The notes under the pieces are model-generated. The model saw only the letters and a program-made list of their open reading frames with translations. It was not told where the DNA came from and ran no database searches. From positions 1-64,000 of the forward strand of contig JAPOQU010000124.1 of assembly GCA_026710545.1 (NCBI GenBank): DNA of 64,000 nucleotides, in the 5' to 3' direction. The translations under genes and the position numbers were made by a program. Positions 54,197-64,000 of this stretch are shown here, piece by piece; position 1 is the first letter of the stretch; the number at the start of each line of letters is the position of its first letter. The stretch is from Gammaproteobacteria bacterium (GTDB lineage Bacteria; Pseudomonadota; Gammaproteobacteria; Eutrophobiales; Eutrophobiaceae).

Positions 54197-54636
54197 TGAG
54201 CCAGTGGCCTCGAGATGAAATTGAACGTGCTTTTAAGCACTATATCGAGCACACTAGGTACTGCGCCGGTTCCGGGAACTGGTCACGCTGGGCGGAACTG
54301 TTCACAGAAGATGTCAGGTACTACAGTAACGGAGTCCTGATCTGGACTAACCGGGAAGAAGTGCGGACAGGTGTCGTCGAATATTATTCCGAATACCCGT
54401 TCAATCACGTAGTTGATTTTGCCTTGAACTGGCACGTTATGGATGAAATAAGCGGCCGGGTGGTGTTCACTATGAAAGTGATCATGGATGACCCCGGTGA
54501 CGGTTCCGACTTCAGCGAAGACGTCCTGATACATATCAATTTTGCCGGCAAAGGTAAGTGGAAACTGCAGGAGGATTATTTTAATCCCGACCTGTTCTCC
54601 AGGATGGCTGAAGACTGGATTGAAGCAAAAAGTTAA
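54196..54636 (+). CDS. SnoaL-like (NTF2-fold) protein
   Basis: A 146-residue NTF2-fold protein: IERAFKHYIEHTRYCAGSGNWSRWAELFTEDVRYY opens the cone, and HINFAGKGKWKLQEDYFN closes it. SnoaL-like proteins serve as small hydratases, cyclases, isomerases or oxygenase partners. It overlaps the ureohydrolase stop (TGATG) and is convergent with the Rieske-type gene, 4 bases overlapping. A second SnoaL-like gene lies at the window's right edge. The function is unassigned. Confidence 0.75.
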   Translation: MSQWPRDEIERAFKHYIEHTRYCAGSGNWSRWAELFTEDVRYYSNGVLIWTNREEVRTGVVEYYSEYPFNHVVDFALNWHVMDEISGRVVFTMKVIMDDPGDGSDFSEDVLIHINFAGKGKWKLQEDYFNPDLFSRMAEDWIEAKS

Positions 54637-55841
54637 TCACACGGGGTAAGATCATCCAGGACAAGACGGGTGAAGTTATAATGCGGCTGATCCCAGAAGG
54701 GTGAGAAGTACTGCTGTGCGCACACGGGCGAACGCCGCGCTTTCTGAATTGCTTCAGTGATTGCGTTATCTTCCCGGGCAGCTTCCTCGAACATCTCTGC
54801 AAACTCGTCGAAAGCTTCTACCAGTGCCGGATCGTTGGCGGCAGATTTATGACAATAATAACCCCGCATTTCTATTGTTTTGCCCGGCCCGTCCGGCAGG
54901 GCAATACCGATTTCAATAATGTTCGGCATAACGACAAGATACAGGTTGGGGTACAGCGTCAGAAAATAGCCGGACTTTGGTGACGGTTTGTCTGTCCGGC
55001 TTAGCGGCGGGCAGGGCAACTCCGGATAGGTATCCGTCAATTCAGCATGATTATAGGAAAACCCTACCAGGGCGCCATCATGGACCGGCTGGAATGTTCT
55101 GTTTCCGTCCCCGACCACGCGCGGCACATCCGGGGATTCATTGTACATCCTGTGGGTGAACGACTCGTGTAACACATTCAAACAGGCATTTTCGCAGTAG
55201 GTTTTCCAGTTGGTATCAATGGTGTCTTCGGTGAGAAACGGCATCCCCTCCTGGTCCCGCGCTATCTCCAGCTTTTCCAGGTCATATTCCTCAAGCAGGT
55301 TGATTACAGGTTGGATGTAGTCGTTGAACGGCTCAGCATTATCTGACAGGTTAATGAATAACAGGCCTTGCCAGACTACTGATTTGACCTGTTTGAGATC
55401 ACCTTCGCCCGGCGCCAGTGCGTCTGCGGTACAATCTTCGTGGCCATTCCAGTAAGGCATGGCTACCAGCTTGCCATCCAGGCTGTATTCCCAGCCGTGG
55501 TAGGGGACAACCAGCTTTTCCATCGCTTTATTTGATTCCAGAACAACCGGGCAACCATCATAAGGACAGATGTTATGGAACGTCCGGAGTGTCTTGTCCG
55601 TACCGCGTACGGCAATAAACGGCATGCCGCAGACATCAAATTTCTTCACATCACCGGGGTTCTCTGCATCGTACGTGAAAACAGCCGCTACCCAGTGTCT
55701 CGAATAGATTCGCTCTGTTTCCAGGTTATAAACATCCCGGGAGATGAATGCCTGCCTGGGTAATGTCCTTGCCTGCCCTATCGGCCGGCGCATCGCAGCC
55801 TGTTCATCCGGGGAAATTAAATGATCAATATTGCCTGACAT
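54633..55841 (-). CDS. Rieske oxygenase-like alpha subunit with incomplete cluster ligands
   Basis: A 402-residue protein of the ring-hydroxylating oxygenase alpha family. The Rieske region reads ICPYDGCPVVLE and VVPYHGWEYS: Cys92 and His115 remain, but the second ligand is Tyr94 and the third is Val112. Cys97 lies nearby and might substitute. The mononuclear iron site looks intact (NWKTYCENACLNVLHESFTH, with an Asp in REDNAITEAIQ). A [2Fe-2S] cluster is therefore doubtful. I use ATG 55841; an ATG at 55865 would overlap the LLM gene by 4 bases. It is co-transcribed with the flavin oxidoreductase. Confidence 0.8.
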   Translation of the reverse strand: MSGNIDHLISPDEQAAMRRPIGQARTLPRQAFISRDVYNLETERIYSRHWVAAVFTYDAENPGDVKKFDVCGMPFIAVRGTDKTLRTFHNICPYDGCPVVLESNKAMEKLVVPYHGWEYSLDGKLVAMPYWNGHEDCTADALAPGEGDLKQVKSVVWQGLLFINLSDNAEPFNDYIQPVINLLEEYDLEKLEIARDQEGMPFLTEDTIDTNWKTYCENACLNVLHESFTHRMYNESPDVPRVVGDGNRTFQPVHDGALVGFSYNHAELTDTYPELPCPPLSRTDKPSPKSGYFLTLYPNLYLVVMPNIIEIGIALPDGPGKTIEMRGYYCHKSAANDPALVEAFDEFAEMFEEAAREDNAITEAIQKARRSPVCAQQYFSPFWDQPHYNFTRLVLDDLTPCD

Positions 55842-55861
55842 ATTAATACCTGGCTCCGGCA

Positions 55862-56890
55862 TCAACCATTATCCAGCATTTCCCTTACCAGTGGAACGAC
55901 GCGTTCCTGAAATCGCCGCATGTTGTTTAACATGTAGTCAACAAATTCCGCGCCCGTAAAACCTCCGGGTTTATAGCCGCCCGAGCCGCCTGAAAGCTCC
56001 ACGATCGCCTGGTCAAACCCGAGGTCAAACACCCGCCTTTTCAAGGTTCTTGCAACTTCCTCGTCATTGCCGGCAATAAAACATTCATAAACATCGAAAT
56101 TATTACGGGTGTATTCGGTTGTCCGGTTGCCCTGCCTTGCGCAAGTTTCAATAAACGCGTCAAAATCGAATTCGCCGTCAACCAATTTTACGCCCACGTT
56201 ACGCGCCAGTTTTACCGTGGAAAAATCACGGCCGGCTTCTTCGAAACGCATTTTTGCAATGGCCAGCAATTCGCGCACATGGTCATCGTCTGCATGATAT
56301 ACGTTGATGTGATCCGCAAATTCCGCGGCGATCCTGGGCATCAGTTTCTTGCCGAATATCAACCCTACCCAGATGGGTGGATGAGGCTGCTGGACCGGTT
56401 TTGGTTCATTAACCGCATTCTTCAATTGATAGTATTGTCCATCGAACGTGACATGTTTCTCGGTCCACATCCGCCGAATAATATCCAGTTCCTCCCGGAG
56501 TATGGCAATACGCTCTGACGGTTTCTCAGGATAAGGTTGACCCCAGGGCAGATGCTGCTGGGGTTCATCACCGGGGCCCATGGCCAGTTGCAACCGGCCA
56601 TTACTTATCTGGTCGACGATACTGCTTGATTTGGCCAGTACCGATGGATGACGTCTGGAGAAGGGTGATACCAGGGGGCCGAATTTTACCTTTTTCGTCA
56701 GCTCTGCAATCACCGGCAGGACCGACCATGTGTCCAGGACCGGCGCTTCCTGGGTATAAGGTTCCGGCCCCACAATATTATCCATCATCCACAGGTAGTC
56801 GTAACCAAGTTCTTCGCCGGCAATCCATAATTCTTTTGATTCTCGGTAGTTACCACCGAGGCCGTTTAAATATACCCCGAAATCAGCCAT
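55862..56890 (-). CDS. Luciferase-like (LLM) flavin-dependent oxidoreductase
   Basis: A 342-residue TIM-barrel flavoenzyme of the bacterial luciferase superfamily. ADFGVYLNGLGGNYRESKELWIAGEELGYDYLWMMDNI begins the barrel; GPLVSPFSRRHPSVLAKSS, NGRLQLAMGPGDEP and PPIWVGLIFGKKLMPRIA are typical. Members use reduced FMN or F420 for oxygenation or dehydrogenation. The start ATG 56890 has AAGGGGA upstream; a frame to 56983 exists but lacks homology. It leads a minus-strand unit with the Rieske-like gene and faces the operator at 57004. Confidence 0.84.
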   Translation of the reverse strand: MADFGVYLNGLGGNYRESKELWIAGEELGYDYLWMMDNIVGPEPYTQEAPVLDTWSVLPVIAELTKKVKFGPLVSPFSRRHPSVLAKSSSIVDQISNGRLQLAMGPGDEPQQHLPWGQPYPEKPSERIAILREELDIIRRMWTEKHVTFDGQYYQLKNAVNEPKPVQQPHPPIWVGLIFGKKLMPRIAAEFADHINVYHADDDHVRELLAIAKMRFEEAGRDFSTVKLARNVGVKLVDGEFDFDAFIETCARQGNRTTEYTRNNFDVYECFIAGNDEEVARTLKRRVFDLGFDQAIVELSGGSGGYKPGGFTGAEFVDYMLNNMRRFQERVVPLVREMLDNG

Positions 56891-57003: not shown

Positions 57004-57023
57004 AATACTACTAAATTAGTATT
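57004..57023. promoter_or_regulatory. Palindromic operator shared with the P450/MBL promoter
   Basis: AATACTACTAAATTAGTATT has inverted arms AATACTA and TAGTATT around 6 bases. The reverse complement of the site at 61549 matches it at 19 of 20 positions. A looser inverted pair, TACTA (56983) and TAGTA (56996), lies next to it. It sits between the LLM oxidoreductase (minus) and GFA (plus) genes and could control both. No TetR- or MarR-type regulator of its own is encoded in the 52-64 kb segment. Confidence 0.7.
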
Positions 57024-57066
57024 TAGTTTGACGCTGTTGCCACACGTAAACTAAAGGAGGTTGAGC

Positions 57067-57480
57067 GTGACTAAATCGAAGAGTATTTCCGGCCGTTGTC
57101 TCTGTGGCGGTATTCGCTATGAAATTGCCGGTGCAATCACCGGCGCCGGTCACTGCCATTGCGCCATGTGCCGGCAACAATCCGGTGCTGCGTTTATGAC
57201 TGCCGGGTTCGTAACACCCGGTGAGTTTCACTGGACCGAAGGGGAAAACCTGATAGCGCGCTATGAGTCCTCGCCCGGGGCATTTCGAATCTTCTGCAAG
57301 GTGTGCGGGTCGAACCTCGGCGCGACAGAAGAAGGGCGGGTCACACTGATCTTTCTGGGGACCGTGTCGGGCGATCCGGGCGTTCGCCCGGCAGAACATA
57401 TATTTGTGGCTTCAAAAGCGCCCTGGCATGAAATTACCGACGACCTGCCACAGTACGACGAATTTCCTCCCTCTGAGTGA
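57067..57480 (+). CDS. GFA-family zinc protein (glutathione-dependent formaldehyde-activating fold)
   Basis: A 137-residue GFA/CENP-V fold protein. Zinc cysteines are in GRCLCGGIRYEI, HCHCAMCRQQSGAAF and FCKVCGSNL. Start GTG 57067 follows AGGAGG at a six-base distance; the in-frame TTG at 57061 is too close. Family members include formaldehyde-glutathione adduct synthases, but most are uncharacterised. A role in removing formaldehyde released by oxidative demethylation would fit the oxygenases around it, as inference only. Confidence 0.82.
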   Translation: MTKSKSISGRCLCGGIRYEIAGAITGAGHCHCAMCRQQSGAAFMTAGFVTPGEFHWTEGENLIARYESSPGAFRIFCKVCGSNLGATEEGRVTLIFLGTVSGDPGVRPAEHIFVASKAPWHEITDDLPQYDEFPPSE

Positions 57481-57483
57481 AGC

Positions 57484-57504
57484 GCCGGGATGACTTATCC
57501 CGGC
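57484..57504. terminator. Hairpin between convergent genes
   Basis: GCCGGGAT (57484-57491) pairs with ATCCCGGC (57497-57504) around GACTT. It lies just after the GFA stop and before the convergent MFS stop. There is no T-run on either side, so intrinsic termination is not certain. Confidence 0.4.
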
Positions 57505-57533
57505 AGGTAAGATATGAAGAATTGCCATGATCA

Positions 57534-58709
57534 TCAGGCCGAAGCCTGAGGCTCAGGGTACGAATGGCGCCGTAATCCGGCGCTAAACACCAGGCCGCCG
57601 GCAGCGCAGATGAGCGCCAGGATGATTATGAACAGGCCCAGTTCACCATAACCGGAGGCAGTAATGATATTGCCGGCCAGAAACGGGGCCGTTGCCGCAC
57701 CCATCAGGTTGATGCCTGTTGCCCTGGCCGCCCAGCGCCCTTCGCTGTCAAGCATTGCACAGCCACCGATGAGATAGGGAAAACCCAGGAAGAAAGCGAA
57801 GGAGAAGCCCAGAATACTTAGCTCGTATATCCAGGTCTGGCCGGTGTTATACACCAGGTAACCCGCTATGCCCATGACGATGCTGCTCGTCACAAGCGGT
57901 ATATCCCGCCTGATTCGCTTCCCAGCTGCGGCAGACACTGCAGCGCCACACAAACCGGCGACCTGGGCCGCCGCAAGAAGCAAACCGATGCGGGTATCGG
58001 TTAACCCCAGGTTGACTCCACTTCGCTCGCTGAAGGACCAGATTGAACCCTCTACGACGCAATAGATAAACAGGAGACCAACGCCGAATACTCCGAACCG
58101 GAAAACGCTGCGGCTATCAAATTGTTCCTTTGATGGCGCGTGAACCTCTGTGCCAGTCGCCGTTCCCGGCAGCATCAGTAACGGGAAAAAAGCCAACACC
58201 AGCACAATCAGGTAAATGCCCGTCACGCCGTCAAACATGAACCGTTGCTTCATGAAGCTGATAGCCGCTATCACCATTACCATGAGCACGGTATTTAATC
58301 CTACTACGGCACCGGCAACACGGTCAGGGTCTGATGCCCGGCTGATTATCGCGCTGCAGGCCGCCAGGCACATACCCGAGCCAATACCACAAAAAATACG
58401 AAGCACTGATAGATAGACCAGGGCATCCTGTGAAAGGCTGAGCAGGTTGCCTGTTGCAGCCAGGCACACGCCCGCGATACCGAGCCTTCGCAGCGGCAGT
58501 TTGTCAAGCCAGCCTGAAAACAGCACGCAACTCACGGCTACGGCGCCGATTTCCAGACTGCAGACCAGGCCGGCCTGGCGCTCATCCGCGCCCAGCCCGT
58601 CCATCAGTGCCCCGATATAGAGCGGTAAACTGAAAATAGTCAGGTTGCCGATGAGAAAGCCGGCCAGGGCTTCCAGCGAATAGCGCAGGTCAGAGCTACC
58701 GGTCGCCAT
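57534..58709 (-). CDS. MFS transporter, divergent subfamily (copy 2 of 3)
   Basis: A 391-residue, 12-helix major facilitator. PLYIGALMDGLGADERQAGLV and LRIFCGIGSGMCLAACSAIIS match the landmarks of the gene at 45748. The 2-3 loop reads LDKLPLRRLGIAG rather than the classic motif. Its start overlaps the TPR-sulfotransferase gene by 14 bases, making it the third gene of the P450 operon. It may export or import the product or substrate of the P450/sulfotransferase steps. Confidence 0.84.
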   Translation of the reverse strand: MATGSSDLRYSLEALAGFLIGNLTIFSLPLYIGALMDGLGADERQAGLVCSLEIGAVAVSCVLFSGWLDKLPLRRLGIAGVCLAATGNLLSLSQDALVYLSVLRIFCGIGSGMCLAACSAIISRASDPDRVAGAVVGLNTVLMVMVIAAISFMKQRFMFDGVTGIYLIVLVLAFFPLLMLPGTATGTEVHAPSKEQFDSRSVFRFGVFGVGLLFIYCVVEGSIWSFSERSGVNLGLTDTRIGLLLAAAQVAGLCGAAVSAAAGKRIRRDIPLVTSSIVMGIAGYLVYNTGQTWIYELSILGFSFAFFLGFPYLIGGCAMLDSEGRWAARATGINLMGAATAPFLAGNIITASGYGELGLFIIILALICAAGGLVFSAGLRRHSYPEPQASA

Positions 58710-60297
58710 TCACTATGCCGTTTTGTTTAAAGATGTTGATTAATGGTCCCAGTTCATCCCTGTAGTGTTGCCATTTTCCCACGGATGACTGGTATATCGG
58801 CTGCCTCACCTGTACTGCACTGGCTGTGGTGGCCGGAGCCGGGTTATTATGGAATTCAATGCACTGCGGTTCCCAACCCAGGTTACAGTATTCCAGTAAT
58901 TTCCTCACTTCCGCTTCCGTATTCTCAACAATATCCTCATAGGCCACACAATACAGCGCATCTCCCAGCACGTCCCGCCAGTGGTCCACCAGGCGTCGAT
59001 AGGCAAGGTAGTACCTGGCAAGTTCCTTCAGGTCATATGAAAACGGATAGATGCCGATGAACATTGTTTTGTAAATTGCAAGGCATGCATCCAGAGGATC
59101 CCGCTCCAGGACTACGATTTTTGCGTTCGGCAATGCAGAGTGAATAATCCCGCAATACAGATAGTTCAGAGGTAATTTATCGATGAAATGTGGCGTATGG
59201 CCTGTCTTCGGCCTCGTGCTTTCAATATAGTTATCACCCAGCAGAGTGACGTCTGTTGCAACCGATCGGTCAATCATTTCCGTCATTTTCATTTTTGCTG
59301 CTCCTGATTTTTCCTGTATGGCCTTGACCAGGACCGAGCTGAAGTTGTTCAGTTCGCCTGCTGAATATACCTTGCTGTGATTCCCGATGATCCTGTCTAC
59401 CAGCGAGGTGCCGGTTCTGGGCAGTCCCAGGACAAAAATCGGCTCAGTGGATGCGTTGCCAGGACCGATTTTTGCCATAGTGTCTTTTGTGTATACGTCG
59501 ATTATGCGGCCGATCGCCTCGATATCGTCGGATACGTCATAGCGGGTATGGCGCCGCTGCAGGTCACAGGCGGATTTGATAAACCTGAATTGCTCGGCAT
59601 AACGCCCGATATCCTCACATTCCTTGGCGATGGCAAATCGCAATGAAATCTCACCGCGCCAGTTTGTTACGCCGGAAAGCAGTAAGTCCTTCATTTGCTC
59701 AATATGATTGTTTTTCTCCGTCCAGGTTTTCAGGTCGGCGCGGGCGTAATAGGCCTGGTAGTTGTGGGGTTCCGATTTGATGACCTGGTCAAAGTTTGCT
59801 TCGGCGCCATCCATATCTCCAATCATGCGTTGTATCAGGGCCAGGTTTGACCGGTAGAACGAACTGCCCGGTTCCTTATCCACTGCGCGCCGGCTGTAAA
59901 CCAGCGCTTTTTCCGTTTCATCACACAGGGAATACATGGTTCCAATCATGTCATTCAGTGACGCTTCGCCCGGGTTGAATGAAACCGCCTTTTCCAGTTC
60001 CGGCAGGGATTGTGAATTTTTACCGGCGCTGATATATACCCTTGCCAGCAGTAAATAGGACCGGATATTTTCCGGGGCAAGCTCAACTACTTTCCTTGCA
60101 TTTTCTATCGCATTATCGTAATTGCGCTGTGCCAGGTTTATGCTACAGAATAACGACCAGACCTGCGGTTTGTGCCGATAAGTCTTGAACAACTGGTTTG
60201 CAATATTGACGGCTTCCTGCAGTTTTCCATTTGCCAGCAGGGCTTCAGCCCTCTGAACCATGTTTCCCAATTCGTTATTGATTGTTTCCGCGGGCAT
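58696..60297 (-). CDS. TPR-repeat sulfotransferase
   Basis: A 533-residue protein. Residues 1-250 are tetratricopeptide repeats (for example VWSLFCSINLAQRNYDNAIE, then IRSYLLLARVYISAGKNSQS). The C-terminal half is a sulfotransferase domain with PIFVLGLPRTGTSLVDRIIG as the 5-prime phosphosulfate loop and VVLERDPLDACLAIYKT as the 3-prime phosphate region. It would transfer sulfate from PAPS to an acceptor, with the TPRs holding a protein or the substrate. It follows the P450 by 52 bases and precedes the MFS carrier. No PAPS synthesis genes are in the window. Confidence 0.82.
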   Translation of the reverse strand: MPAETINNELGNMVQRAEALLANGKLQEAVNIANQLFKTYRHKPQVWSLFCSINLAQRNYDNAIENARKVVELAPENIRSYLLLARVYISAGKNSQSLPELEKAVSFNPGEASLNDMIGTMYSLCDETEKALVYSRRAVDKEPGSSFYRSNLALIQRMIGDMDGAEANFDQVIKSEPHNYQAYYARADLKTWTEKNNHIEQMKDLLLSGVTNWRGEISLRFAIAKECEDIGRYAEQFRFIKSACDLQRRHTRYDVSDDIEAIGRIIDVYTKDTMAKIGPGNASTEPIFVLGLPRTGTSLVDRIIGNHSKVYSAGELNNFSSVLVKAIQEKSGAAKMKMTEMIDRSVATDVTLLGDNYIESTRPKTGHTPHFIDKLPLNYLYCGIIHSALPNAKIVVLERDPLDACLAIYKTMFIGIYPFSYDLKELARYYLAYRRLVDHWRDVLGDALYCVAYEDIVENTEAEVRKLLEYCNLGWEPQCIEFHNNPAPATTASAVQVRQPIYQSSVGKWQHYRDELGPLINIFKQNGIVNGDR

Positions 60298-60349
60298 GCC
60301 GGCTGTTTGTTATTTTCGGCCTGAAACGTACCGGTGGTTTCCGTATTCT

Positions 60350-61543
60350 TTACCGGTGGGCAAGTGTAACGTGAATTTCGCTGGAACCATATGCCAGGGG
60401 AGTTTGTGCCGGCGTGAGCCAGTCATCACCAGCCGGTTGCATGGTATATCCATTTTCCAGCAATCCCGTCATAAAGGACTTGATTACCAAGCGCGCCAGC
60501 ATGGCGCCGATACACTGGTGGATGCCTGTGCCAAACCCGAAGTGTTGTGTAGCGCCACGGGAAATATCGAACCTGTCCGGGTTTTCAAAAATGTCGCCAT
60601 CGCGATTTGCAGATAACATCCATACAAGTACCGTGTCTCCTGCGTTGATTTCTTCATGCCCTAGCGCGGTATTTCGGGTTGCCACCCTTACCATGCACTT
60701 GACACAACCATAATAGCGCAAGGTTTCTTCGATAGCGGGACCCAGCAAATTTTTATCCACTGCCAATCGTTGAAACTGTCCGGGATTTTCAAGCAATGCG
60801 CGCAATAAATTACCTATTACTGTAGAAATTGTATCAACACCGGCAAAACTCAGTATTGCCACGATATCAATGAAAATCTCCCTGGTTACGACCCTGGGGT
60901 TACTCTCATGCAGATTATTGATATATTGCAAGGCGGAATTTTCACCCGTATGACTGGCTGAATCGATCATATCGATTATATATTCCCGGACCTCCTTAAA
61001 TACCCTGTCGAGACGTTCCTCCCTGTCACTGTAACCGGAATTTCTGAAATAAAGATAACCCTCATTTTGGACCACCTCACGGGCCCAGTGCAGCGCCTTT
61101 TTCGAGTCATTGTGATCGAGGCCGAGGAATTTGCACATGGCAAAAGATGCCAGCGGGTCAGCAATATCACTGACTATATTGACGGATCTGCCATGCTCCA
61201 TATTGTTCAGCAGTTCGATACTCTTTTCTCGTACTACCTTATCCAGCCAGTGAATTCTCTTGCGGTTGAATAACGGATCAAATAACTCTCGCATCCGGGT
61301 ATGTACCGATGGATTCCGGAACAGGGTTTCCCCTCCGACAAGCGGTTTGTCATGGTTGGCGATCCCCTGAAAAGAGAAATCATTGTCATTCCGGCAAACG
61401 TAACGCACATCGGCGTATTTGAATACGGAAACACACGGGACGGCAGTTTCTTCGTGCCGGTAGACGGGTTTATTGGAGCGAAACCACTCGAGGACCGGAA
61501 AGGGATCATTATGGAACTCAGGAGAAAGGAAATCCGGTTTCAT
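60350..61543 (-). CDS. Cytochrome P450
   Basis: A 397-residue P450. The I-helix motif is ILSFAGVDTIST, the ExxR motif is EETLRYYG, and the haem loop is FGFGTGIHQCIGAMLAR with Cys344 as ligand. It differs from the P450 at 30690 along its whole length, so it is not a recent duplicate. It is the first gene of a minus-strand operon with the TPR-sulfotransferase and an MFS carrier. Its ATG is six bases from the shared palindromic operator. No dedicated redox partner is present. Confidence 0.9.
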   Translation of the reverse strand: MKPDFLSPEFHNDPFPVLEWFRSNKPVYRHEETAVPCVSVFKYADVRYVCRNDNDFSFQGIANHDKPLVGGETLFRNPSVHTRMRELFDPLFNRKRIHWLDKVVREKSIELLNNMEHGRSVNIVSDIADPLASFAMCKFLGLDHNDSKKALHWAREVVQNEGYLYFRNSGYSDREERLDRVFKEVREYIIDMIDSASHTGENSALQYINNLHESNPRVVTREIFIDIVAILSFAGVDTISTVIGNLLRALLENPGQFQRLAVDKNLLGPAIEETLRYYGCVKCMVRVATRNTALGHEEINAGDTVLVWMLSANRDGDIFENPDRFDISRGATQHFGFGTGIHQCIGAMLARLVIKSFMTGLLENGYTMQPAGDDWLTPAQTPLAYGSSEIHVTLAHR

Positions 61544-61548
61544 AATTA

Positions 61549-61568
61549 AATACTGATTTAGTAGTATT
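61549..61568. promoter_or_regulatory. Palindromic operator shared with the LLM/GFA promoter
   Basis: AATACTGATTTAGTAGTATT lies between the divergent P450 and MBL genes. Its reverse complement, AATACTACTAAATCAGTATT, differs from the site at 57004 at one base. A -10-like TATACT at 61579 for the MBL gene follows, which places the operator over the -35 region. It touches the 5-prime end of the P450 gene, six bases from its ATG. Confidence 0.7.
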
Positions 61569-61621
61569 ATGTTTACATTATACTGTATGCGTGACTGTAT
61601 ATCACATAAACGACTTGAATC

Positions 61622-62440
61622 GTGAATAACATTGATACGATTGAAAGACCGGAGATGAGGCTGCAGGAGTTACCCATTGCAGAGCAGTGGTACAGCAGCA
61701 CGACACTGGATGGTGGCATAACCCTGCTTACGGAGCCATATGTGGACCGGCTTATCCGTTGTAACATCTGGCACATAAAGGGAAGAGATCATGACCTTTT
61801 GATCGATACCGGCCTGGGGGTGTGCAGCCTGAAAGAAGCGGCCCGGGACCTGTTGGAGTCGCGGATTATTGCAGTAGCCACGCATACCCATTATGACCAT
61901 ATCGGCAACCACCATGAGTTTGATGTGCGCGCAGTGCATGAAGCGGAGGTCGAACTGATGAGCATGCCTGAGCCGGCGCCTTTATTTCTGTCCGAGTTCG
62001 GTGATCAGGCAAGTTATATTATCGAAGCAGGATATACACCGGATGAAGATCTGATTAAAGCCTTACCTTATACCGGCTTTGAACCGCATAATCATCATAT
62101 ACAGGCGGCGCCGGCAACCTGGATCCTCCAGGAAGGAGATGTTATAGACCTGGGGAATCGTGCCTTCGAGGTATTGCATCTACCCGGCCATACGCCGGGC
62201 AGTATCGGCCTGTGGGAAGCTGATACAGGCATCCTGTTTTCCGGGGATGCTATCTATGACGGGCCGTTGCTGGCCAACCTGCCGGAAGCAAACATCGATG
62301 ACTATATCGACACGATGGAGCGCCTGATAAGACTGCCGGTGCGTACCGTGCATGGGGGCCATGAGAGAAGTTTTGATCAACCACGGCTGCTGGAAATTGC
62401 AAGAAAGTACCTGGAGTCCTGGCGTGACGGCAGCACCTGA
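61622..62440 (+). CDS. Metallo-beta-lactamase-fold hydrolase
   Basis: A 272-residue MBL-fold enzyme. The zinc motif is THTHYDHIGNHHEFD; other metal ligands are in LHLPGHTPGSIGL, FSGDAIYDGPL and TVHGGHERSFD. The N-terminal region reads LITEPYVDRLIRCNIWHIKGRDHDLLIDTG. Lactonases, glyoxalases and thioesterases share this fold. It is divergent from the P450 across the operator and leads a two-gene unit with an MFS carrier. Hydrolysis of a lactone or ester made by the oxygenases is a plausible role. Confidence 0.84.
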   Translation: MNNIDTIERPEMRLQELPIAEQWYSSTTLDGGITLLTEPYVDRLIRCNIWHIKGRDHDLLIDTGLGVCSLKEAARDLLESRIIAVATHTHYDHIGNHHEFDVRAVHEAEVELMSMPEPAPLFLSEFGDQASYIIEAGYTPDEDLIKALPYTGFEPHNHHIQAAPATWILQEGDVIDLGNRAFEVLHLPGHTPGSIGLWEADTGILFSGDAIYDGPLLANLPEANIDDYIDTMERLIRLPVRTVHGGHERSFDQPRLLEIARKYLESWRDGST

Positions 62441-62449
62441 TCCCTGGGT

Positions 62450-63610
62450 TTGACTGGGACAAATACAAAGCCGGAAACCCCCGTCCACATAACCGGCATC
62501 CTTGGCGGTTATATATTCGGCATGCTCAGTCTCTGGCTGGCGCCCGTCTTTGTCGGCGAATTCATGCATGCCTACGACATTTCCGAGCAGGAAATTGGTC
62601 TGATATTCGGGTTGCAGGCTGGGGCTATCGCCCTTGTTTCACTCTACTGTTCATACAGGGTCAGCGTCCTGCGGTTAAGGAAACTTGCCTGTGCGGGCGC
62701 CGTACTTGCCTTGACGGCACACGGCTTATCTCTCATGGCGGACACATTCCAGGTGTTTACGCTGTGCCGTATCTTGGCGGGCACAGGTGAGGGCATGGCG
62801 TTCGCAGCAGCGAATACTGCAGGAGCAGCCGTTAAAAACCCGGATCGCGTATTCGCCCAGGCACAACTGGCCAGCATGTCTGTTGTTGTCGTTTTACTGT
62901 TTGCTGTCCCGGATATCACGGCCCAGTACGGGTTTCGTATGAGTTTAGGCGCAATGATCCTGGCACTCGTCGTATCAGCCCCTCTCATGACCCGGTTCCC
63001 GGTTGCCGGCATCGGGGTCGACATCAAAATCAGCGGTAAATTCAACCACTATCCACTCCCGGTACTGGGCATCAGCATATTGATCGCCTTCACGCTGGTA
63101 AACCTGAGCGATATAGGCATATGGGTGTTCAGTGAACGTATTGCGGCAGACATAGGCATGACACCGGATGCCATCTCATGGAGCCTTGGCGCGGTGACGA
63201 TTCTCGGCATGAGCGGACCCTTGCTCGCTGCCCTGCTGGGGGACCGATTTGGCCTAGTGATACCCTTGACTGCAGGATTGGTTTTGGAAGGATGCAGCGC
63301 GCTCCTGGTGGTTTACGCAACCGGTCCGATCAGTTATAGCGCGGGATTGGTCCTGCTCCTGATCAGTATAGGTTTTCTCATTCCCTATTTTCTGGGCGTC
63401 CTGGCAAGGCTTGACAAGCACGGAGCGTGGACAACCCTGTCCGGTACCATCGTGTCATTCGCCATGGCCATCGGGCCGGTTTTTTCCGGGTTTATCGCGG
63501 CTCACGCAGGTTATACCACTGTGGGCTGGTTTACGGTTGGATTTTGCTGTGCAGCGTTATCCATATTACTGGCGGTCCTGCAATCCCTGGGCAGGACTAA
63601 AGAGTACTAG
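62450..63610 (+). CDS. MFS transporter, divergent subfamily (copy 3 of 3)
   Basis: A 386-residue, 12-helix major facilitator. PVFVGEFMHAYDISEQEIGLIFGLQAGAIA and LCRILAGTGEGMAFAAANTAG align with landmarks of the genes at 45748 and 57534. It begins at TTG 62450, nine bases after the MBL stop. It probably shares the substrate range of the other two carriers. Confidence 0.82.
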   Translation: MTGTNTKPETPVHITGILGGYIFGMLSLWLAPVFVGEFMHAYDISEQEIGLIFGLQAGAIALVSLYCSYRVSVLRLRKLACAGAVLALTAHGLSLMADTFQVFTLCRILAGTGEGMAFAAANTAGAAVKNPDRVFAQAQLASMSVVVVLLFAVPDITAQYGFRMSLGAMILALVVSAPLMTRFPVAGIGVDIKISGKFNHYPLPVLGISILIAFTLVNLSDIGIWVFSERIAADIGMTPDAISWSLGAVTILGMSGPLLAALLGDRFGLVIPLTAGLVLEGCSALLVVYATGPISYSAGLVLLLISIGFLIPYFLGVLARLDKHGAWTTLSGTIVSFAMAIGPVFSGFIAAHAGYTTVGWFTVGFCCAALSILLAVLQSLGRTKEY

Positions 63611-63651: not shown

Positions 63652-64000
63652 TTAAGGTAATGTGAAATCCACAGCTTCCAGTGACTGCAACATTTCAAGT
63701 GTATCGCTGGCGTACCACATGCAAGTAATCATGTTATTTTCAATGAGAAACATATCTCTAATTCTCCATGATACCCGTTTGCCATGTGCAGGTATGCCTT
63801 TGTACTCTTCTAAAAAATCCGCACTGTAAACAGCATCCACCGTTACCATGCCTGTTTCTTCACCCACAACAATATAGTTGATATCAAAGTTTTCATTGCG
63901 GAATGCCCTGTCTGATGGGCGTATGATCTGCTCCAGCACCGCTTCCTTTCCATTGACCACCCCGGCTTTTGTCCAGTCATAGCAGACAACGTCTTCTGCA
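63652..64000 (-). CDS. SnoaL-like protein, cut by the window edge
   Basis: The reading frame is open to the right end of the window, so the N-terminus lies outside. The visible 116 residues read VVCYDWTKAGVVNGKEAVLEQ, then DINYIVVGEETGMVTVDAVYSAD, and end MLQSLEAVDFTLP. This is an NTF2/SnoaL-like fold related in type to the gene at 54196. The GTG at 63958 is not likely the true start because the family sequence continues upstream. It is convergent with the MFS gene. Confidence 0.65.
   Translation of the reverse strand, partial: AEDVVCYDWTKAGVVNGKEAVLEQIIRPSDRAFRNENFDINYIVVGEETGMVTVDAVYSADFLEEYKGIPAHGKRVSWRIRDMFLIENNMITCMWYASDTLEMLQSLEAVDFTLP

Follow-up and report, generated by a model that had tools for sequence, protein, structure and literature searches.

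A 13-bp Palindrome at Divergent Promoters Is the Likely Operator of a Local Lrp/AsnC Regulator

Genes of the Locus

This study concerns a window of 64,000 nucleotides, bases 1-64000 of contig C124 (JAPOQU010000124.1; 263,552 bases) of a gammaproteobacterial genome (GCA_026710545.1, here G000; 4,425,347 bases on 129 contigs); contig coordinates run on unchanged past the window end. Near that end, a 20-bp palindrome with a 13-bp core occurs in two copies, and the evidence presented here makes it likely that the core is the operator of an Lrp/AsnC protein encoded in the same gene island. The two core positions, 57009-57021 and 61551-61563, are designated operators 1 and 2 in keeping with this interpretation.

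Operator 1 is flanked on the minus strand by LLM1 (55862-56890; PF00296, 1.7e-39), an LLM-class flavin/F420-type oxidoreductase that scores under the cut-off of its nearest NCBIfam model, TIGR03560, followed by a Rieske-oxygenase-like protein (54633-55865; PF00848, PF00355) that, from alignments, lacks two [2Fe-2S] ligands (CPY...VPYH), and on the plus strand by a GFA-family protein (57067-57480; PF04828, 9.8e-23). LLM1 most likely starts at ATG 56890, and the divergent GFA gene at GTG 57067, preceded by AAAGGAGG. On the minus strand side of operator 2 are a cytochrome P450 (60350-61543; PF00067, 9.8e-28), the start codon of which is 7 bp from the operator, a TPR-sulfotransferase (58696-60297; PF13469, 2.5e-40, plus TPR), and MFS carrier 1 (57534-58709; PF07690, 1.7e-16); on the plus strand side are a metallo-beta-lactamase-fold hydrolase (MBL; 61622-62440; PF00753, 2.9e-18), with a GTG start 58 bp from the operator, and MFS carrier 2 (62450-63610; PF07690, 2.2e-15). 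The window closes with part of a SnoaL-like gene on the minus strand (63652-63999; contig 63652-64083; PF07366). Operon membership was assigned from gene spacing.

The Palindrome and Its Core

The two 20-mers, AATACTACTAAATTAGTATT (57004-57023, plus strand) and AATACTACTAAATCAGTATT (61549-61568, minus strand), agree at 19 of 20 bases on direct comparison, as an earlier, sequence-only reading of this DNA had stated, and both do lie between the divergent gene pairs that it named. With up to three mismatches allowed, no match to the 20-mer arose in 100 shuffles of the window, and the whole genome contains only these two places, with none in the control search for the reversed motif. A 19/20 identity between two places only might also be left by a duplication or a mobile element, but the identity ends within a few bases on either side of the site, and the same core recurs at further promoters and in further genomes, where its flanks differ; that the 20-mers are such remnants, and not operators, is highly improbable.

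Although the pair is real, its functional core appears to be 13 bp and not 20, as the remaining sites described below do not preserve its outermost bases but do preserve the inner 13-mer, TACTA-N3-TAGTA (5-3-5). Operator 1, TACTAAATTAGTA, is a perfect palindrome, and operator 2, TACTGATTTAGTA, has one mismatch. The exact core has a single copy in the genome, operator 1 (reversed control, 12), and copies with a single mismatch occupy 18 places, against 221 for the reversed control; the genome-wide scan thus found copies not to be common, a result that leaves the earlier proposal of a shared operator standing. Three of the 18 places, all of them between divergent genes, are inside 8.7 kb of the island. 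When 11,264 gapped palindromes with five-base arms and gaps of 0-10 were counted in the intergenic DNA of this island and of a related one (L010, see below), TACTA at a gap of 3 ranked first. The motif centers, which include AAT, TTA, CAT, and ATA, are AT-rich and fit the definition of Lrp/AsnC-type operators as imperfect inverted repeats of 13-17 bp with an AT-rich center (PMC2995911). Judged from its sequence, the core most likely belongs to the class of sites known for Lrp/AsnC regulators, as opposed to a 20-mer of the TetR/MarR kind.

A Candidate Regulator beyond the Window

The sequence-only reading had placed the regulator outside the window, where a candidate was indeed found, and had suggested a TetR or MarR protein, which is disfavored by the lack of conservation of the outer bases and by the presence of the site in the promoter of an asnC gene, making an Lrp/AsnC protein most likely. 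This gene (contig 65114-65608, minus strand) lies 1.1 kb past the window end and encodes an AsnC-type helix-turn-helix (PF13404, 2.3e-14) and an Lrp/AsnC ligand-binding (RAM) domain (PF01037, 1.1e-11), both above cut-off; the nearest solved relative of the protein is PH1519 (FL11). A normal Rieske oxygenase (64080-65099) and, last, the SnoaL-like gene stand behind asnC in the same unit. Site 3, TACTATTATCGTA (65691-65703; L003:2692-2704), is between asnC and a second LLM gene (LLM2) and has a partner 31 bp off at 65660, with like pairs in two related loci (L009 and L081). Site 4, TACGGAAGTAGTA at 67997, is weaker and lies 60 bp ahead of a TonB receptor gene. No TetR or MarR gene with the site in its own promoter was found: the strong copies are those between LLM1 and GFA, between P450 and MBL, and between asnC and LLM2, and no TetR/MarR domain was found in ten genes neighboring the single-mismatch sites of the wider genome.

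We therefore consider it likely, with good confidence, that the 13-bp palindrome is the operator of the regulator encoded at contig 65114-65608, which would act locally and also regulate its own gene. Local Lrp/AsnC regulators of amino acid catabolism in proteobacteria, of the BkdR and PutR type, are encoded adjacent to their targets and have a site in their own promoter. The predicted targets differ here, being P450, LLM, Rieske-like, sulfotransferase, MBL, MFS, and TonB genes at four divergent promoters.

Conservation in Relatives

Related islands are present in RHO3_bin_19 (L009; G003), in Plut_88898 (L011, L075, and L081; G002), and on a contig of NAT224 (L010). A scan of 116 relatives' genomes found exact 20-mers in only three, which are exactly those with this asnC gene; neither is present in four congeners. 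The 368 other genomes sampled from the class yielded no orthologue of the regulator (E<=1e-22) and no further carrier of the island. The orthologous intergenic regions of the relatives keep the site, so that the absence of conservation that would have told against an operator was not seen. The 20-mer of operator 2 beside MBL is identical in L009 and L011, which is weak evidence alone because the entire intergenic region is conserved there.

The L010 island, the proteins of which are ∼53-79% identical to those of the window genome, provides a more distant comparison. A matrix built only from the sites of L010 places 57009, 61551, and 65691 at ranks 1, 2, and 3 over 123 kb of the window contig; in a permuted-matrix control, 8 of 999 matrices put all three top matches in island promoters, but some permutations, an estimated six or so, recreate the same word, and the fraction is not usable as a P value. 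The helix-turn-helix stretch of the regulator is identical in L009 and L010, the entire protein being 76% identical. Of the two exact 13-mers in the whole of G002, one occupies the TonB/MFS promoter, at a distance of 2.6 kb from asnC.

In L009, a single site heads a run made up of the sulfotransferase, MFS, LLM, and Rieske-like genes; this arrangement ties together, on independent grounds, the two operons that are separate in the window. The P450 gene has been lost in both congeners: in L011 (146-260), what is left of it is the first 14 codons, joined in frame to the sulfotransferase gene, a remnant that supports the P450 start codon assigned here, and in L009 (6075-6200), it is reduced to a decayed start. 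The relatives' islands contain nothing that corresponds to GFA. Both genes, P450 and GFA, are accessory on these grounds.

The GC content of the L010 contig (PAJD01000028.1) is 44.5%, and that of five further stretches of the Neomarinimicrobiota metagenome-assembled genome to which it is assigned is 22-29%; the contig was therefore probably mis-binned, and the sequence comparison is independent of this. The isolate names of two relatives suggest that the host genus is probably sponge-associated.

Phasing of Sites and Mode of Regulation

At the asnC/TonB promoter of L010, three copies of the core are spaced exactly 31 bp apart (none of 5000 shuffles reproduced this; one copy holds an assembly N), and the MBL promoter of L010 has two copies, again 31 bp apart. 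Among 56 pair distances compared, 31 bp scores best at each of the two L010 promoters, for asnC/LLM2 in three congeneric genomes, and at two TonB promoters. FL11 was co-crystallized on a 13-bp palindromic site, and targets of Lrp-like proteins have clustered sites with centers two or three helical turns apart (PMC2995911). FL11, the Lrp-like feast/famine regulator of Pyrococcus horikoshii, resembles the present system in both respects, but its half-site word differs as far as known, and it is described as a global regulator (∼200 units), whereas the regulator of this island is bacterial and looks local.

These observations bear on the alternative that the palindrome belongs to a different regulator, either a TetR/MarR protein encoded elsewhere or an XRE-cupin protein (contig 77606-78250), with asnC controlling something else. 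The XRE-cupin gene belongs to this island as well, and a TetR dimer could fit the perfect 7-6-7 inverted repeat found at operator 1 (AATACTA...TAGTATT); however, it is the inner 13-mer and not these outer bases that is kept at other sites, the asnC promoter carries sites in every island seen, the 31-bp phasing is typical of Lrp-type oligomers, and on the short L010 contig, asnC is present without an XRE-cupin gene. Control by a regulator other than AsnC is accordingly improbable.

Several points weigh against the assignment to AsnC. Operator 1 is without a clear partner at 31 bp, and the possible partner of operator 2, the half-site TACTGTATGCGTG (61581-61593), is weak, although it has the region's second-best matrix score, and lies at 30 bp. 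In the asnC promoter, the site carries one mismatch in this genome and two in L009 and L081; in this genome, the TonB site also carries two. Fifteen further single-mismatch sites lie elsewhere in the genome, and the island is known from four sources only, three of them from one genus.

From the sites, their spacing and conservation, and a regulator gene with a site in its own promoter, all of which can be read directly in the DNA, we infer binding and the sign of regulation at each promoter as follows. A dimer of AsnC would read the 13-bp TACTA-N3-TAGTA core, and the next dimers along the oligomer would contact another copy, often a degenerate one, at a distance of 31 bp (three helical turns), so that the oligomer may be held by one strong site and a weak partner three turns off. 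A predicted sigma-70-like promoter directed toward P450 (GTGATA-17-TATAAT; 61577-61605, minus strand) matches 10 of 12 consensus bases, with ∼0.8 such matches expected by chance in the region. Operator 2 starts 13 bp past the −10 element of this promoter, and its occupancy would therefore be expected to obstruct the P450 transcript. A small molecule, perhaps a guanidino or arginine-like metabolite, might act as the effector, resetting the oligomer and causing the promoters to switch together.

A variant that retains the regulator and its sites, and is compatible with the core of this model, is that AsnC acts mainly as an activator of the catabolic and uptake genes and represses only itself and P450. 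In several genomes, the MBL and TonB sites are located ∼58-60 bp ahead of the start codons, a position that does not in itself imply repression, and an Lrp-like protein may act positively at its targets and negatively on its own gene (review, PMC2995911); at the P450 promoter, the position of the operator past −10 speaks against activation. Such predominant activation is possible, though it is the less probable course.

Extent and Role of the Regulon

The operator common to both divergent promoters supports the claim that the eight window genes are under one regulator, but the regulon, which is very probably real, is also larger than these, with at least four divergent promoters and a dozen or more genes predicted from the distribution of sites. 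Operator 1 would serve LLM1-Rieske-like and GFA; operator 2, P450-sulfotransferase-MFS and MBL-MFS; site 3, asnC-Rieske oxygenase-SnoaL-like and LLM2; and site 4, an MFS carrier and the TonB receptor with the genes co-transcribed behind it. The boundary of the regulon indicates which genes work together. The description of the regulon as oxidative is too narrow, since uptake genes are also found at the sites and guanidino-type hydrolases in the island. A still wider regulon, drawn from the 15 other single-mismatch sites, was considered and rejected: the count is not above expectation (18 in total against 221 for the reversed control), 4 of the 15 sit within genes, and the neighbors (two TonB receptors, an amidohydrolase, a P450, repeat proteins, and unknowns) form no clear set.

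The wider island encodes two agmatinase-type hydrolases, one arginine-deiminase/DDAH-like protein, a type III glutamine synthetase, and a glutamate-synthase-like gene, and the L010 contig has a peptidyl-arginine-deiminase-type gene and an arginase-family gene. A guanidino or arginine-like compound is therefore the best guess for the substrate or effector, a tentative assignment that falls a little short of an even chance, and these neighboring enzymes supply the first effector candidates. FL11 binds lysine, arginine, and glutamine (PMC2995911). Most likely, the island serves to take up a nitrogen-rich compound, perhaps a guanidino one, and to break it down oxidatively. The more specific proposal of a new pathway in sponge-associated and marine bacteria, in which a guanidino compound would be imported and broken down by P450, LLM, sulfotransferase, and a cluster-less Rieske-type oxygenase with its iron site kept, under one Lrp/AsnC switch acting through phased TACTA-N3-TAGTA sites, is doubtful as a whole.

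The sequence-only reading had matched the gene combination to no known pathway, and a literature search, which covered open papers only and is weak evidence, likewise retrieved neither an island of this kind nor a cluster-less Rieske oxygenase. The regulatory system is of the known Lrp/AsnC kind, whereas the pathway that it controls and the Rieske-like protein without cluster ligands are undescribed in the literature searched. For a pathway that matches none found, the analysis supplies a named regulator, an operator of 13 bp that can be tested, and a definite set of genes.

Following the TonB receptor, contig 71573-82626 (L003:8574-19627) contains a second P450 and TPR-sulfotransferase pair and the XRE-cupin regulator, together with ADI/DDAH-like and agmatinase-type genes, glutamate-synthase-like genes, and the type III glutamine synthetase.

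The Rieske-like Protein

The best matches of the Rieske-like protein are Rieske non-heme iron oxygenases of the CntA and GbcA type, with which its iron-site histidines align and are kept; it differs from them in having two of the four [2Fe-2S] ligands and the bridging acid replaced. In place of the Rieske motif C-x-H...C-x-x-H, it has C100-P-Y102...V120-P-Y-H123, and the changes of His to Tyr102 and of the second Cys to Val or Thr120 are present in all five aligned family members. The bridging acid is replaced by Asn230, His233 and His238 are invariant, Asp366 is present in the family, and an extra Cys105 is kept in the five aligned. Structure prediction on three sequences gave a mean predicted local distance difference test score (pLDDT) of 29. 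Members of the family are encoded at 54633-55865, in L009, L010, and L075, and at L073:9437-10672 and L056:2152-3429. That a Rieske-fold enzyme without an electron-donating cluster occurs in three separate islands raises a question accessible to direct biochemical testing.

Diverged copies of the Rieske-like gene also occur apart from the TACTA operator. One, on contig C4 of the same genome (L074), is accompanied by MBL and arginase-type genes and a TonB receptor, with an adjoining LuxR-type regulator gene, and another, on contig C650 of G002 (L073), by a TPR-sulfotransferase and a TonB receptor. G000 holds at least 24 Rieske-type matches in 4.4 Mb, and the numbers in some congeners are similar.

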